Below are positions 6,401 to 21,631 of a stretch of DNA of 64,000 nt, in pieces. The stretch comes from Pegea sp. RAD2-039 (taxonomy: Eukaryota > Chordata > Thaliacea > Salpida > Salpidae). The stretch lies in contig JAQGEQ010000186.1 in the NCBI GenBank assembly GCA_034620365.1, positions 682,001 to 746,000 of the forward strand, read 5' to 3'. Both the position numbers and the translations under genes were made by a program. The notes beneath the pieces are model-generated. The model made no database searches. It saw nothing but the letters and a program-made list of their open reading frames with translations, and was not told the origin of the DNA. How positions within the stretch are numbered: the first letter of the stretch is position 1; each line of letters begins with the position of its first letter.

Positions 6401-8918
6401 TTGATTGGTTTACATTCAAAAAAGAAACCGCATTCGTTAGACAAACTTGTATTCTAAAAAATCGATTAATAATATGTCTTTCATGTTTCTATAAAAATAC
6501 TTTTCATATAGTTTGTAAATAAAACAAAGAAGTTTTAAACACACGAAAAATTAGTTTAGTAATACAATAAACACAACAACAATATAATGGATTTTTTATT
6601 GAGACTAATTTTTTTAGATTTATTTTAAGTCTCAATTCTTAGATTATCAAAAAGATTTTTTTATTTCATTTTTTATAGTTAGCTTGAAAGCAAAAATAAT
6701 TTAGTAATTTTTAAATAGTATTAGATTGACTGGAGACAAATACTTAAAAAGTTTTTATATATTAATAAAAAAATATTTGTTTTCAGCTTTTCAATTGTTA
6801 TTAAGAACTTTTTGATTAATAACTTCAGTAAAATATCTATTAAGAAATATTTATATGATAGTGTATACAGATATTTCAAATTAATTACATTTTTTTCAAG
6901 TAATTTTCAATTTAGAAATATTTTAATATCTTTAATTTAGAGGGTTTATATTCGTGAGTGTGCTATACTTGTGCAAATGTACACTTCTCAGTGACATATT
7001 GATCTTTATCGAGTTCAAAGTCATAATAATTTGAAATCGGCTCGTCATATTGAAGGTAGTTTTAACAAGAAGTATTAACTTTAATGAATTTTTGTGAACA
7101 TAAGTTAATTATGTGTCTATGTAATCAGTATTTAATAAATTAAAACCTCGTACTTATAACATTTTGTATCTTGTATTTAAATGATTAAAAAATTATTAAA
7201 ACCCATCTCTCAAAGTTAGATCTAATCTGAAACTCTTATAAACTGAAGATTAAAAGTCTCTTGCAAGGTATTAGTAAAATAAACAAAGCATTTGACAAGC
7301 TTTTAAATATCATACATTAAGCACATTCTTCACATATTACAGTTTACAGATTCTCAAATAGTAGCTCTTGAACTAGTTCTTCATCTATAAGTATGTTTTT
7401 ACAATATTTAAAGAGATATTTTTGTATAAAGTATTATCTCTATCTTCCAACCTACGCTTGCAATAAAAAAAAATAAATTCTGAAATATATTTCCGATTAT
7501 ATAACTTATTAGACAAATAGTTATTTTAAACCATTTTAATTGTCTATCGATACAATAAACAACTATTATGATGTATCAAACAACGTAATACAAATGCAAC
7601 ACTTGGTATGAACTTTGACAAGTACTTGAAAAAAAGAAAAAGTTGATATCCATATATTTCAAGCGTTTTAGCTTCAGCAAATAAGTAAGCTTTTAAAGAT
7701 GTGTTATTTGAGTAAAGTGTAGAATGTTTTAAAAATAAATGAGTTTATGATGTTTCAGAGGAAGTTTAACCATAAAATTACTTATTGTTTTCTTTGTTGA
7801 AGACTAGCTGCTTGCTTTTAGATAATGTATTTTAGTTTTTTTTAGATTTACTTGGTAGGTTGTTTTTGTGAAGTTTTATTTTAAAGATTTGTAATCAAAC
7901 TCAGTATAAAATATAGCTTTAATCTAGCTTATACTGGCTTATACTATTTACATATTTTATTGATGTTACTACTTAAATAAATTAAACTGCTAAAATCAGT
8001 CTTTAGAATCTTATACTAAATAGTTTCAAGATGTTTTTACAGTCCTCGGTTAGGTTGCTTTATTTTATATATATTCAAGACATATAACTTTTGATTTTTA
8101 TTTTAAACTAAATCTAATTTCCTCATAAAACACTAAATCAACATTTTTGGCAAAAACTAATTTTTAAAAGCTTAAGTAGTTCAGCTTGGCTAACAAAACT
8201 TGTTTAAGGTAAACTATCTAAAAATAAACTTTAATAGAATTTCCTCGATAAGAATTATTTAGAATATTTAACTAGCTGACTAAATGCTGGACTATAGTTT
8301 GTATAAATATAAAAGAGATTCTTTAAAACTGTATATTTGCTGGAATTGCTTTTAATACTTTAAAAAAACATACTTTAATCTTAATTGAAATGATTAAAAT
8401 AGTTACTCTTCACATTTTTAAAAACACAGAAGCTTTATTTTGAATGAAATTCCACAAATGATAAGATTAAGGTACAAACCCGTGAAAGTATGAGTAAAAG
8501 TTTAGATAAAAACTTTTTGTGCTATCTGATCTTATCTGATATTTCTAAGTGATTTGATAAATTCAGAACAAATTAAAGAAAGTTAATCTTTAAAAATTTC
8601 TCATAAATAACAAACAACAATTTATGTTTTATTTCTACAAATTTGAAAAATAATTCCAGTTTTAATAATCGAAATATTAAAAATATACCTAAACTATATT
8701 ATCACAAAATTAATATTTAAGTTTTGTAATAAAATTCAAACTAATTATTTAATCTTATTTTTGAAATAAGAAAGTTTTGTATATCAAGTCTTCGGTTTTT
8801 TGGTTTATTACACACCTACATACATTTCTATGATAGCTATTAACTTACTCGTATTTAATTTCCTAAAAAAAATAAATTTAGCTTTGAATTATTTTTTGGT
8901 TTAGTCGAAAAGCTGATC
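495..8918. other. AT-rich intergenic DNA
   Basis: I find no exon, RNA gene or repeat I can name in these 8.4 kb. Open frames are short, made of Phe, Leu, Asn, Lys and Ile codons expected from AT-rich DNA, and lack splice sites that would join them. The last bases, a T-rich run ending in TTTAG near 8893-8903, look like a splice acceptor just before the BTB gene, so a 5' untranslated exon of that gene may lie in this stretch. Confidence 0.55.
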
Positions 8919-10739
8919 ATGTTTTGGAAGAAAAACAGAAATGATTTTAGAATTTTGAGTAAAGATAAAACCTACATCTTTTCAATTGAAGAGCTTCAAA
9001 AGCGGAGCTTCTTCTTTAAAACTTTTTTCCAAAGCTCTTTATGCAAAGATGAAATTGAAAAAAGATGTCTATGTCTTAGTGACACTACATCAGATATTAT
9101 AGATGTACATTATTTAGATGTGATAATGAAACTACTACATCATGTTGAAAAAGAAGCTGTGACGTCATCACGAATCGAAAACTGCATCTTTAAACGAGTA
9201 GGTCTGCTTCCTGGAAATCATCGTTCGTTTGGAAGTAAAAAATTTCGTGAATGGATGTTAAATGCAGATACTTTGAAGATGCAAAAACTCCTTACAGTTT
9301 GTGATTACTTCCAAATACTCGATATTGTAAAATATCATGGATTCAACATTGCAAATATCACCAAGACGGATCTACAGCTTGCTTTAAAGATCTTATCTAT
9401 TGATCACGTGCCAGAAATCAGCCAATTATATGATGCAGCCCTAAAAGTTGCTTGTTGCAGTTTCATTGAATGTAAAAAACTTTTAAACCACCAAGACCAT
9501 CTGCTGGATTTACTCATACAAGAACGGATTACGAAGACACAAGTGTGCGGTATTTTTCGTGTTGATACCTCATTTGATGAACGAAAGACTTTTTGCAACC
9601 ATTATGTCATAGTTGCTTTTGGACCAAATGATCCTGGTAATGACAAATGGGAGCCAAAAATAGTTGCCCAATTTTTCTTGGACAATGACGAAAGAGTGAC
9701 TCAGGCAGTAAATTGGTCAGGTTACATCTACGTGTTAACTACTCAATTTGAAAAAGAAAAAAATGAAACAACAATACGAGTTCATCGTTTCAACCCATAT
9801 CTTGTAGTTTGCTACAACGAGCAAGAACAAAAAGAAAACTTTGATTTACTTCCAGAACATGACAAAATCCACCATAAAAGACCTCCTCTTAAACAAGTCA
9901 TCACATTAAGTAAAAAGAAACCAAAAAAATCCAACTTCGAACGTGGGTGGTTCAACGAACCATGTAAATTGAAAAAACCTGGGTTTGTTGACCATATCTA
10001 TGCTGAAATTCACTCATTTGATGAAAAAGAGTACATTTGTCTCCGGTATTGGACCAGGTCCAACCGGATAGTTGGCTCTGGTGATGTAGTTAGTCCATTA
10101 CCTTTGAGTGATGCCGACCGATTTGATTTAGTGAATAAGAAGTGGTCAAGATGTAATCACTGTGAAGAATATAAGAAGAAATTTAACGGTATGCATTGTT
10201 TAAAATCATTTTTTGTTAATTTCATCAATCAATTTCTATTTGAAGGTCCAGATACTCTTTCTCAAGTATTAAATTTAGAAGATGGACTTGTCTGTTCAAC
10301 CATCAAAAAGTCTTATCAACATTATGCTACTCAGCAAGAATTTTTTCGACGTAATAACCGACTTTTTGTAAAATCGATCAAAGTTGTTTACCCTGAGCTA
10401 CCAGTCTCTGATTGTAGCACAAAAACCAACAAGGTCAAATCTGTTTCTGATATCATAAAAGCAAGAACTTTAGACGGTTTCACTCATCAAGATATTCATA
10501 TTGGTGTGTTCTATCGTATCCTTATTGATCAAAGCTATATAGATGGATCACATCGTATTCAATTGACTCAATATAATCTAGGAGATCCGTCACAACATCG
10601 TGTCTTGTATGCATTAGATTATAAACCTGAAGAAAATGAGGAAAAAGATTTCAACTCAAACCAAAATATTGAACATATCCTAAGAAATTCAAACCTAGCA
10701 ATACCTGATATTATAAATCTGTCTTCTAGCTTACTATGA
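8919..10739 (+). CDS. Intronless BTB-BACK (Kelch-like) protein
   Basis: A single open frame of 606 codons, exceptional for this window, where the other genes are split into small exons. Residues about 10-75 look like a BTB/POZ fold (start ILSKDKTYIFSIEELQKRS, hydrophobic core, then LDVIMKLLHHVE). Residues about 120-200 look like the following BTB helices and a BACK domain (LQLALKILSIDHVPEISQLY, then FIECKKLL). The remaining 400 residues are basic and divergent. In Kelch-like proteins this part forms a beta-propeller that recruits substrates to Cullin-3 ligases, but I cannot see clear Kelch repeats. A Cys/His cluster (CNHCEEYKKKFNGMHC) lies near residue 410. A likely splice acceptor ends 16 bases before the ATG, so the coding region sits in one exon after a spliced leader. 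It may be a retrocopy or an ancestral single-exon gene. Family call by fold pattern only; substrate unknown. Confidence 0.7.
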   Translation: MFWKKNRNDFRILSKDKTYIFSIEELQKRSFFFKTFFQSSLCKDEIEKRCLCLSDTTSDIIDVHYLDVIMKLLHHVEKEAVTSSRIENCIFKRVGLLPGNHRSFGSKKFREWMLNADTLKMQKLLTVCDYFQILDIVKYHGFNIANITKTDLQLALKILSIDHVPEISQLYDAALKVACCSFIECKKLLNHQDHLLDLLIQERITKTQVCGIFRVDTSFDERKTFCNHYVIVAFGPNDPGNDKWEPKIVAQFFLDNDERVTQAVNWSGYIYVLTTQFEKEKNETTIRVHRFNPYLVVCYNEQEQKENFDLLPEHDKIHHKRPPLKQVITLSKKKPKKSNFERGWFNEPCKLKKPGFVDHIYAEIHSFDEKEYICLRYWTRSNRIVGSGDVVSPLPLSDADRFDLVNKKWSRCNHCEEYKKKFNGMHCLKSFFVNFINQFLFEGPDTLSQVLNLEDGLVCSTIKKSYQHYATQQEFFRRNNRLFVKSIKVVYPELPVSDCSTKTNKVKSVSDIIKARTLDGFTHQDIHIGVFYRILIDQSYIDGSHRIQLTQYNLGDPSQHRVLYALDYKPEENEEKDFNSNQNIEHILRNSNLAIPDIINLSSSLL

Positions 10740-16426: not shown

Positions 16427-19400
16427 ATGCCAAGCGAACAAACATCACGTGATGAGAAGCAGCAAATGGCGGCGACGTCCTCTTCAAAAAATTTTCTAAA
16501 CAACTTGGACATGTTTCAATCAATTGATGGATCAAATCCTGCCATGACTCTAAATGAATATCAAATCGCCGTTCAGCAAATTCTTCTTCAATACTCGATG
16601 CAGCAACAAGCATCTTATAGCATGTTAGGGACAACAGCAATAAATAATGCACAAGCTGATATTTTAACAGGCTCTAACAGTCTTCCATCTTCTTATGATC
16701 CTGCTTCGATCTGTGAGACTTATCAGACGTGGTAAGTTTTTCTTTTTTATTTTCAGCTTGTTTTTTTCTGTTCATCAACTTAAAAGTTAATCAAGAATGT
16801 CTTCGAATACTTTTAAATGGTTTTGGTCATTATCTAACTGTTCGAGATTGGTCACGCGCCACTGATTCCACGGACCACAATTATATTGTGCCTTTTGGAA
16901 ATCACTATAAGCTACCAGGATGTCATAAAACGAAAATTAAGACTGAACATTAAAAACAGCGAAAAAAACAAGAATAAATAGAAAGGAAAAAGATAAAAAA
17001 GTTTCTATTCTTTAAGTCAGTCGTCGGTTTTTTTATCACGCTAAAATTCTTGGTTATTCCGGTAAAAATAGAGGGGGAGGTGTTAGCGCGTTTTCACCTT
17101 TTGATCATTTCGAACGAGTGCTACCGCTTCTGCGCATGCGCGCGGCGTTTCTTGCGGTCTTGAAGATAGCAAATGGCGTTTTTTGGGCATGAAAAGGATT
17201 TTAGTTTTGAGAAGTTATTGATGCTTTGATGAGATCGGCAGATCTTAAAAAGATTTTTCTAAATTTTCACAATTCAAATTTTAGGACAAATCAAATGATG
17301 ATGTTGTATCCTCTATTGAGCAACTTCGGATCCCGTGGAGTCAAGACTGAGAGTCCGTACGACTTGAGTACTTTGGAAACAAATTCTGATCCTTCAATTA
17401 TTAATCTTTTATCGTGAGTTTGATTCGTTTTATTTTTAGATATCTTCATCTAATTTAAGGACTTTTAGGATGTCAGCAGCAGGCTCACAGTTGACATCAA
17501 CATCACAACAACCAACAACATCAAGTAGTGACGTCACCACATCAGTTCCAAGTCTTGTCAATCCTTTTTCAAACGGGAAGATACTAGTAGGAGCAAAAAG
17601 CAGTTTACAAGCTTCAAATTCTTCCAGCACAAGTAAGTGAACAACAATTTCATCAAGTTTTCAAACTGAAATTTGAATATTTTTTCGTGTTTTTTAACTT
17701 CAACATATTTGACGATTTGAATATTTTTGGTGGAGTAGCTTTTAAGACTATTAACTTTGATGGCAATTCTGGGCCAGGCTATTGAAGCATGAAGCCAGAA
17801 ATGTCCGTTGAAACCAACAAAGTTTTCAACTGAAAAAAATTGAATCGAAAATTTAGCAACACGCCACCAAAAAAAAAATTCTCTAAAAGTTGCGCTGTAA
17901 AACGCGAGAAGCAGTAGAGGTTGGCGAAGAACAAATTTTTCCGGCTTCACCTCGTCACTTTACACGGGCCCACCGCACACGATGTTGACGTCACAACGAT
18001 GGGAGGCGCGCGGCACATACACGTATCTAAGGAGTGGGTGTGTGTGTGCTGCACGCGGGTGTAAAAGCGCCAACAACTAGTACATCGAGAGTGTGGCACA
18101 TGCGCACAAGTTAGAAGCTACGACATCGACCGCGAAAAGTAACCCAATTGCGAAAAATACTAAACATCGCGGCAACAGCGCTATGCGCGTCTCTTTCATA
18201 TGACGTCATAAGCGTGCGGTATAAGCTTCATGCACGCGTGCAGTAGGACAGATATGTGTGTGCATATGTGGTACGATTTCCACTTGTGACGTCATGGTGC
18301 GGGGTTGACGAAGAATACCGATGATTTGTTGACATTTGAATCACGTGACTTTCGAGTTTTCGTGTTTTTTTGTTTGTGTGAATTTCTGAGAAGTAGACGA
18401 AGCAGTCGCTTTTGCTGTCATATTTTCAAATTGCTGTTAAGACTGTCGCAGGTAAAGATTTGGTTTCAAACTAAACTAAAACAAACATCTTCAAGTCCTA
18501 TAAATCTGTTTATCTTGTTGTCATTTGTTCTTTCTAAATATATTTCAGATCTTTCCCTGTTTTTCGTTTTCTGTTTTTCTAATTTAATAAAACTGTTTTT
18601 AATCACTTCTTGTAAAACTAATTCGAAACCAGCCACAAGAGGACAGCATTGAGTAGTCGTTCGTAACTCAAAAGCTGTTAATTACGGAAAACAACTTTCG
18701 AAGTTTTATCTAAATAATTTTCCTTCTACAGATCTTATAGCCAAAAATGGTCGTTTACGTTGTACGCGCGGAGCAACCTCTTCGAGTCAAATTGGTTTTG
18801 ACGGTTTCTCAATGAGATATACGCTAAACTTACCAAACGGACATTCTAGCTCTGATATTATATTAGAGCCAAATGAAGAAGGAGAAGATATTTTGAAGGT
18901 TGAATGTGGAAACAACAAAGCTCTTTTATATATTTCAAAGTTATGTCAGGGTAGCAAAGGTATTTGAAGGACTTTTTTCAGATAAATTAAAAACATTTCA
19001 CTCTCTATATATCATTTGTAATTACAATTTTCTTATTGATTTTAGGAAAAGCTATTCTCTACAAAGACGCTTGGTTTTGCCCAAATGAATTTCAGTCTTT
19101 GAGTGGAAGAGAGACTGCTAAAGACTGGAAGAGAAGTATAAGGCACGGTGGAAAGAGCTTAAAAGTTTTGATGACGAAGAAGCTACTAATCGCTCATAAT
19201 AATGATTGTAATTGTAACTGGTGTACACAAAGTTGTACATTTTTTTCTGAGGTAATCATCTGTTATAAAATCAACATCAGTTTCTATATCTTGTGTAACG
19301 TTTTTTCAATTATGGTTTCGACTATTGAAATATGTTTATGTAAAAATATAATTAGTTCCTTTAAAAGTTTCTTTAATTTTATTGCTTAATTAGATGAACA

Positions 19401-21631
19401 GTGTGGATCATAAAAAACGGCTTACGAGTTCAGCACCAATAAAATCTCTTGGAATACAAAATAAAGCTCTAACCTGGTCTATTCCATCAGTCGACCAATC
19501 AGTAACAAGTTCTCCAACTCAAATGTCAGATAAAAGTGATATTGAAAATCATAAAAGTAACAGGTTGGTTTCAAATCTAATATTACATAAATATCTATTT
19601 ACTTTTCTAGTAATCACTTTTTATATATATTCAATCTTTCTATTTGGTAAACATTTTAACGTTCAATTTGGTTTCCTATTCATCTAAAGGTTATATTACA
19701 GTAAGTTTTAAATAGCCTATTATAAAGTGGACGTCGTCAGTAACTAGAGTCTCATCTAAGAAAACTTTAAATCACTTTTTCATTAAGAGACTTTTTTTTA
19801 TAATTTTTTTTTTATTTTTTAGTTGCACACAAAGTCAGGCAGATGTTCAAAAGAAATCCATTTCAATTGTAGATCCTGAAACTTCCTGTGATACTATTAA
19901 ACGTTCTTCTTGTAAAAGATTTCTAATTGATAATTCTGTTCAGGTAAAATCCTAAGAATTTAGATAATTAGTTTAGGATATCCACAAATTGTATAAAAGC
20001 ATTGGCTTTATTTAGAAATCAATTTATTTATCATAATATATTTTTTTTCTGTTTTTTTTAGAACATAGAAAAGTTCCCTCCATCAAAACGACTATTATTA
20101 TCAGAAAAGTCAGGTATTTTGCTTATGTTCTATTTAAGAATTGTACAACTAATAATAGAGATTAAATTGATTTCTTTCGTCAGCTATGTTTGCTTTAAAA
20201 AATATCTTATTACAGATTCAACTGCGAAGGGTTCGTCAGTTCATAAGTAAGTTTAATTGTGAAAACTAACCAATAAATCATTTGAAGTGTAACTATAAGA
20301 TATTTCCTTATAGAACTAATTTATTTTTAAGTCTCAGAATTTATAAGATTTCTAAAATTAAATAAGCCATTTTGTTACAGAGATATATCTTTAGTAAATG
20401 AAATCAGTAAGGCAAACGAAGGCTTTATAAAAGTGGAAAAAACACTCAATTCTAAAATTGATGAAGTTCGAACTTCAGAGCGCTCTAAGATACAAGCTTG
20501 TAAAATTGGTGATAAAAATCAAGTGTTGGCAATAAAGTACATCAAATTGACAGAGAATAGCAAGCTCGTTAACAGGTTAGCATATTTGCAAACTTAAGAA
20601 ATATTCTGTAAATGTCAAATTAGAGCTTTTATACCAACACATATCTTAAGTTTAAATCATGTAATGCTGAATTTGTAGTGAAGCCGAAGATAAATCTAAA
20701 TCAAATGATGATAAAGTTGAATGTACTGATATGACAAATGGGAATAAAAATAATTTCTTTTCAAGAAGCCAAACATTTATCAGGTTAGAAAGAATAAAAA
20801 TAATTTCAAAATAAGAAAATAAATTCGAATATTTACAAAATTGCTTTTAAATTATTCTTTTTCTATTAATGTTTCAATACAAAATAGAAGAAAGCTTGTT
20901 TGACAATAGATAAATATTTTGTAGAAATAAGAATAGAAAGGTGAAACCAAACCCTGAAAGCCATGACAAGTCCAGAAGAAAATCAGTTAGTGCCCCAGCC
21001 TCACCAACCAATGTGTGAGTTGAAAATGCTTGACGAATAGAAATAGTATCAAGTTATTAATGACCCTTCTTATGTCTACAGATATGAAATGTCAAATATA
21101 AATATAGAAGATAATGAAAATAGATATCATCCACCCTTAAGTCCCTCTAGTGGTGATAATGTATCAGTCCACTCTGCTCCTATATTTACATTCACACATT
21201 CATTGGATTCGTTACGTTTTCTTCCTCGTACTAATTTCAGTCTACAAGACAAATCTCTTTTAGAAAGTATTAGTAATGCAGCTGCTGAGATGTCAACTTG
21301 GGATAATGGAAAAGTCTGTGACTTTCTTGATAAGATTGGATGCGGAGGATATAAGCAGGTTAGTTTGACTTCATTAGATTCACAATTACATTAAAAAATT
21401 TGCATATTCCAAATCAACATCCATGTTTGTTTACAGGCTTTTCAAGAACATTGTGTAAATGGACATTCACTACCATTTCTTCGTGAAGAGCGTCTCATCA
21501 AGATGGGGATGAAACTAGGACACGCTCATACGCTCATGGCAACTGTTCATCGCTTGATCGGAAGCTATTCTATGATACTTGAAGCCCACCATCGAGCTTC
21601 TTCAGAGCCTTCAACGCTTATCACAGAATAA
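16427..21631 (+). CDS. SAND and SAM domain transcription regulator
   Basis: Fourteen exons join in frame to 755 codons: 16427-16731, 17285-17413, 17469-17632, 18732-18959, 19046-19251, 19394-19563, 19823-19943, 20062-20113, 20216-20246, 20381-20575, 20679-20783, 20925-21014, 21082-21358, 21437-21631. Residues about 254-335 form a SAND domain: VECGNNKALLY, SKGKAILYKDAWFCPNEF, then the DNA-binding KDWK motif in AKDWKRSIRHGGKSLKVL, followed by a His/Cys-rich stretch (HNNDCNCNWCTQSC) as in DEAF1/GMEB-type SANDs. The middle is Ser/Lys-rich and probably disordered. Residues about 669-740 are a SAM domain of the Polyhomeotic/Scm/MBT style (GHSLPFLREERLIKMGMKLG), a polymerising or partner-binding module. 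The likely role is nuclear, sequence-specific regulation with SAM-mediated oligomerisation (inferred). The ATG at 16427 is the first in-frame methionine. SAND together with SAM is an uncommon pairing, so I give no symbol. Exon 4 and 6 donors (GTATTT, GTTGGT) are weak but keep frame. Confidence 0.85.
17940..18330. promoter_or_regulatory. CpG-rich element inside intron 3
   Basis: Within the 1.1-kb third intron of the SAND-SAM gene, a short GC-rich block carries three CRE palindromes (17986, 18201, 18287) among many CpG and GCGC words, with a CACGTG at about 18343. It resembles the upstream island and lies just before the exon coding for the start of the SAND region. It could be an internal promoter for a shorter isoform or an enhancer. 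The sequence shows only the motif cluster; the function is inferred. Confidence 0.4.

Follow-up and report, generated by a model that had tools for sequence, protein, structure and literature searches.

The window analysed here, by which we mean the whole stretch of 64,000 nucleotides (C8:682001-746000), contains on its plus strand, at 16427..21631, a gene whose product joins a SAND domain in its N-terminal part to a SAM domain near its C-terminus. We regard this gene, with good confidence, as an animal chromatin regulator of the SAMD11 type, probably from an invertebrate, whose SAND domain would bind DNA and whose SAM domain would assemble PRC1-like repression. Judged from their sequences, the gene and its three paralogues in the same genome are likely to be new members of the SAND-SAM family represented by SAMD11, which is a known kind of regulator. 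The main value of the locus lies in what it suggests about the age of the SAND-SAM pairing and about its local expansion, and it adds no new kind of regulator to those already described.

Gene model and domain content

Rebuilt from splice sites and open frames, the gene comprises 14 exons on the plus strand and encodes 755 residues ending in a single terminal stop, the same length as in the original prediction. All 13 introns are of the GT-AG type, and their phases are consistent across the model. The start codon, predicted in exon 1 (16427..16731, donor GTAAGTTT), and the 5' exons of the model have the open frame alone as their basis; exons 2 (17285..17413) and 3 (17469..17632) follow. The first part of the SAND domain, as placed by Pfam on the model, lies in exon 4 (18732..18959), which ends in VECGNNKALLYISKLCQGSKG and is followed by a phase 1 intron, and the remaining part, with SGRETAKDWKRSIRH and a cluster of the form HX3CXCX2C, lies in exon 5 (19046..19251). 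The linker between the two domains is encoded by exons 6 (19394..19563), 7 (19823..19943), 8 (20062..20113), 9 (20216..20246, the shortest, with only 31 bases), 10 (20381..20575), 11 (20679..20783) and 12 (20925..21014), while exon 13 (21082..21358) holds the end of the linker and, again by Pfam, the first part of the SAM domain with W672. After a phase 0 intron, exon 14 (21437..21631) supplies the remaining SAM with G719, a short tail and the stop. Neither an Rfam match nor a tRNA was detected in the window.

The original prediction had proposed running SAND and SAM_1 profiles on the translation, and both families were found above their cut-offs. Pfam places SAND at residues 251-323 (E 6.8e-26; 90.2 bits, cut-off 22), and the SAM domain is recognized both by SAM_1 at residues 671-731 (E 1.7e-11; 44.7 bits, cut-off 23) and by SAM_2 at residues 670-731 (E 1.4e-10; 41.6 bits, cut-off 20.5), with 24 residues following it. 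The predicted KDWK motif and His/Cys cluster are both present, the latter as HX3CXCX2C at residue 326. Only SAND and SAM families matched the 755-residue protein at E ≤1, in a search whose filters dropped most matches with E above about 0.1; MYND, HSR, PHD and bromo domains were absent, as were ankyrin, SH3 and PDZ domains, and no family of NCBIfam, with its bacterial and archaeal models, was matched.

Against the PDB, the SAND domain of the window protein matches SP100, GMEB1 and SP140. Its SAM domain, when used as a single sequence, has SHANK2/3 as the top matches, with SHANK2 (E 1.3e-6) ahead of Polyhomeotic (Ph; 7.8e-6), whereas a profile of the four SAM domains of the SAND-SAM genes in this genome has Polyhomeotic as the best match (E 4.1e-12), followed by Liprin-beta-1 and SHANK3; PHC3, L3MBTL3, Sfmbt and Scm rank lower among the best 50 PDB matches listed. 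The claim of a C-terminal Polycomb-type SAM is supported by the profile, and the domain may be termed Ph-like with the reservation that the single sequence favours SHANK2. Those single-sequence matches are what would speak for a scaffold SAM of the SHANK type placed beside a SAND domain, with a cytoplasmic or synaptic role. We consider such a protein scarcely credible, as the four-member profile, the missing ankyrin, SH3 and PDZ domains, and the SAND domain itself, which points to the nucleus, all stand against it.

SAND-SAM paralogues and SAND-only copies in the genome

The genome searched (105.7 Mb, 387 contigs) contains at least 33 SAND matches, made up of four SAND-SAM genes, two exons of a GMEB-like gene and 27 others. 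The window protein was compared with ORFs from all six frames of 31 loci, a set that includes the window itself (L002), and three further loci were found to carry a SAND and then a SAM domain on the same strand, namely on C8 at about 1.790 Mb, on C43 at about 0.66 Mb (minus strand) and on C38 at about 0.105 Mb. The distance from SAND to SAM is 1.0, 3.7 and 1.7 kb in these loci, respectively, versus 1.8 kb in the window. Since the two domains occur close together, in this order and on one strand, at three additional places in the genome, a chance pairing is excluded.

In the ORFs of the paralogue loci, the match to the window protein is interrupted within SAND, after GSKG, at window residue 275/276, and within SAM at residues 691-693. 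As the breaks fall at equal residues, the two introns that split the domains, at joins 4-5 and 13-14, recur in the paralogues, and GT-AG joins at both breaks restore SAND and SAM in all three; each join is the GT-AG pair with the best score against the window protein, which means that the exact fit is partly built in. Because these domain-splitting introns recur in three genes with SAND and SAM, the two domains very probably belong to one gene. The model is a prediction from the DNA, exon 9 is short, and the linker exons 6-12 had no blastp match in the paralogue loci at E ≤1, all of which would suit a false merger, in the model, of a SAND gene with an adjoining SAM gene. Such a merger is nevertheless very improbable, for the frame runs unbroken through the 14 exons and their introns, the close same-strand order is found in 4/4 loci, and human SAMD11 has both domains in one protein (PMC11450717). 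A SAM_1 search of the genome returned 17 matches. None of the four SAND-SAM genes was among them, an absence presumably due to the intron that divides each of their SAM domains.

The SAND domains of the three paralogues are 76, 54 and 53% identical to that of the window over 85 columns, and their SAM domains are 44, 45 and 47% identical to it. In all eight comparisons pN is lower than pS, and in five of the eight dS is saturated and not computable; thus, the copies are old, selected and protein-coding. The KDWK core is intact and HX3CXCX2C is kept in all four SAND-SAM copies of the genome, as are the sole Trp of each SAM domain and the Gly of LG(H/P)A.

Of the other 27 SAND matches, eight lie on C322, 17-45 kb apart, and 19 on other, often small contigs; many sit on repeated contigs. 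Six of the 27 were read (C106, C154, C297, C119 and two on C322), and in these KDWK is replaced by NDWK or HDWK. No SAM domain was found near the five that were searched, over 3.7 to 9.8 kb downstream and at E up to 0.5-1; the copy on C154 sits at a contig end. A GT-AG join at the place and in the phase of the window's SAND intron is possible in each of four SAND-only copies checked. Two stretches of C322 are 92% identical across 8.9 kb, and C297 and C119 are about 98% identical. The separate GMEB-like gene, so labelled by eye against GMEB1, lies at C1:1526 kb and has a different SAND intron. In addition, arrays of TTAGGG occur on C108, C125, C139 and C342, and among the matches listed all were TTAGGG and none TTAGGC, which, given the telomere types of these groups, speaks against rhabditid nematodes, arthropods and bdelloid rotifers. 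A search of the assembly for COX1 found no match.

Relationship to SAMD11 and proposed function

The SAMD11 sequence used for comparison is a provisional one, in which the 681-residue reference appears to start within the SAND tail and is preceded by an N-terminal stretch of 179 residues, giving 860 in total as opposed to 844 for the long isoform; this stretch, with most of the SAND, is therefore uncertain. The 681-residue part of the provisional sequence agrees with the published length and with K45, R168 and R630 of a 2016 study (PMC5062157). The SAND domain of the window protein is identical to that of the provisional SAMD11 at 52/82 positions (63%), all but the last 18 SAND residues lying in the uncertain stretch, as compared with 33/71 (46%) for SP100, 30/82 (37%) for GMEB1 and 28/67 (42%) for SP140. 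For the SAND domains of the three paralogues, the corresponding values are 69, 54 and 57% with the provisional SAMD11, 44, 38 and 35% with SP100, and 35, 27 and 30% with GMEB1. A 12-row SAND tree, with the C106 row read through its intron, does not settle the grouping with SAMD11, five of its nine inner branches being open; by path, the provisional SAMD11 is the nearest row to the window after C8b. HX3CXCX2C is also present in the provisional SAMD11, within the 681-residue part that agrees with the published data (PMC5062157).

For the SAM domain of the window protein, identity amounts to 27/68 (40%) with the provisional SAMD11, 22/65 with Ph and 19/61 with SHANK2. By alignment score, the provisional SAMD11 exceeds both Ph and SHANK2 in each of the four genome copies (SAMD11/Ph/SHANK2: 124/93/95; 159/123/86; 112/84/102; 101/80/71). 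By percent identity, the case that SAM makes for kinship with SAMD11 is weak, two of the paralogues being tied or nearly so (C8b, 45% to SAMD11 and to Ph; C43, 40% to SAMD11 and 39% to SHANK2). The spacing from Trp to Gly is 47 in the window SAM and 49 in Ph and in the provisional SAMD11, and by this spacing W672 and G719 would be equivalent to W404 and G453 of mouse mr-s (Samd11), which were mutated there to weaken self-association (PMC1435744).

Human intron 13 (c.1801-2; PMC5062157) interrupts SAM at a position different from that of the window's SAM intron, which lowers the case for close orthology only slightly. The repressive tail of mr-s, of about 80 residues (PMC1435744), has no counterpart in the window protein, and the gene is therefore filed as SAMD11-type by architecture and not as a proven orthologue, although orthology appears likely from the sequences. 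The differing intron position, the modest identity of the SAM domain and the open branches of the SAND tree would also be expected if a SAND gene of this lineage had captured a SAM domain apart from vertebrate SAMD11, the pairing being convergent. We hold such an independent fusion to be quite unlikely, since SAND is nearer to the provisional SAMD11 than to the other SAND domains compared in 4/4 copies, the domain order is that described for human SAMD11 (PMC11450717), and the pair has a long history in this genome, with four divergent copies and saturated dS in most comparisons.

Under the preferred reading, that of a SAMD11-type regulator, the SAND domain with its KDWK motif and His/Cys cluster most likely holds the protein on DNA, and the SAM, which resembles that of Polyhomeotic, most likely links copies of the protein to one another and to further SAM proteins, including those of the Ph type. 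A bound site would thereby be tied to PRC1-like repressive assemblies and would be repressed. The mouse protein provides the available precedents: mr-s self-associates mainly via its SAM region (PMC1435744), and in HEK293 cells tagged Samd11 co-precipitates with itself, with Samd7 and with Phc2, a subunit of PRC1 (PMC7892874). In a GAL4 fusion assay, mr-s was described as repressing mainly via its tail, with SAM largely dispensable (PMC1435744), and as this tail is absent here, SAM partners would have to contribute a larger share of the repression than they do in the mouse. The earlier idea of a regulator placed on DNA and assembled by its SAM domain gains support; that the Pegea protein binds DNA, assembles through SAM and represses is inferred.

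Age of the pairing and comparison with known SAND and SAM proteins

The original prediction had regarded the gene as a member of a lineage-specific or lost ancestral family. A 2024 retina study describes human SAMD11 with SAND at the N-terminal and SAM at the C-terminal end (PMC11450717), so that neither a lineage-specific nor a lost family can be upheld; the pairing, being described in a living gene, comes close to the well-catalogued common family that the prediction had itself named as counting against it. The ancestral part stays plausible if the source animal is an invertebrate, as its assembly of 105.7 Mb suggests. As for the partner domains expected of SAND proteins, MYND, PHD, HSR and bromo are indeed missing here, but SAMD11 had been omitted from the comparison. 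This omission is understandable, because a 2016 study of SAMD11 in its 681-residue form recognized no obvious domain for DNA binding (PMC5062157), and the start of that form inside the SAND tail may explain why.

If the source animal is an invertebrate, the SAND-SAM pairing predates vertebrates, and in humans the SAMD11 isoform with SAND would be the old form and not an oddity. According to the retina study, all SAMD11 isoforms detected in the retina lack SAND except ENST00000618323.5 (PMC11450717); if the pairing is old, the SAND-less ones would be without the ancestral DNA-binding half. A broader scenario, which we regard as rather doubtful, would combine an ancient animal SAND-SAM pair, the dropping of SAND by most human retinal isoforms, the four-gene expansion seen here, and the 27 SAND copies as derivatives that have lost SAM. 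In that scenario the SAM-less SAND domains would lack the repressive arm and might possibly act as competitors arising from amplified DNA. In a sea-anemone transcriptome, a SAND-domain protein is named among putative transcription factors and, separately, an uncharacterised SAM protein is named (PMC5288695); our searches of an open-licence library brought up no account of SAND and SAM together in a single invertebrate protein. Viral contigs were also scanned for a SAND domain, and no relative was confirmed.

Among known proteins, SP100/SP140, GMEB, DEAF1 and AIRE have a SAND domain in common with the window protein and carry partner domains other than SAM; SP100, SP140 and GMEB1 have a lower SAND identity to it than the provisional SAMD11. 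Polyhomeotic/PHC, Scm, L3MBTL and Sfmbt share the type of SAM, and neither they nor SAMD7 are known to contain a SAND domain. SAMD7 has a SAM related to that of SAMD11, with 69% mutual identity, and a link to PRC1 (PMC7892874), and samd7 and samd11 are both reported as rod-enriched in a study whose excerpted text leaves the SAND domain unnamed (PMC9901936). SAMD11 (mr-s) itself resembles the window protein in its N-terminal SAND and C-terminal SAM and, in the provisional sequence, in the HX3CXCX2C cluster and in the Trp and Gly discussed above; it differs in having about 80 residues after SAM versus 24 here, a SAM domain two residues longer and another position of the SAM intron, while the Pegea genome holds four SAND-SAM genes.

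Other genes in the window and assembly-level observations

Besides the gene that joins a SAND to a SAM domain, the window holds several frames that were assigned to families by eye, including, on the plus strand, an uninterrupted frame of 626 codons with the appearance of a BTB/kelch-type protein (8859–10736) and exon-like frames resembling cohesin RAD21 (47.8–49.5 kb). On the minus strand lie likely-looking exon frames of an SLC6-type transporter (37.4–41.1 kb) and exon-like frames resembling an adhesion-type GPCR (60–62.6 kb). In the genome assembly searched (G000), TTAGGG arrays were seen on contigs C108, C125, C139 and C342, those of C108 and C125 lying right at the contig start, and a search of the assembly for COX1 gave no match.

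Further SAND matches

A profile search of the genome returned at least 27 SAND matches in addition to the SAND-SAM and GMEB-like genes, distributed over contigs C322, C119, C297, C288, C106 and others (extracted loci L023 and L028–L031). Where compared, these copies are near-identical repeats (92–98%), and those that were read carry NDWK or HDWK in place of the core motif KDWK. No SAM was found in any of the five of their flanks that were searched. Long tandem repeat arrays adjoin two of the C322 copies (L029, 7769–9565; L030, 7820–9768), and another copy is adjoined by a minus-strand frame resembling, by eye, a divergent nuclear-receptor zinc finger (L031, 6146–6406).

SAND-SAM paralogues and their introns

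Three more genes combining SAND and SAM are present in the assembly, at 1.790 Mb of C8 (L019/L020), 0.66 Mb of C43 (L021, minus strand) and 0.105 Mb of C38 (L025/L026), and comparison of open reading frames showed that each has the domain-splitting introns of the window gene, one inside SAND and one inside SAM. The SAND intron of a gene labelled by eye as GMEB-like (L027, C1 at 1526 kb, minus strand) lies at another position.
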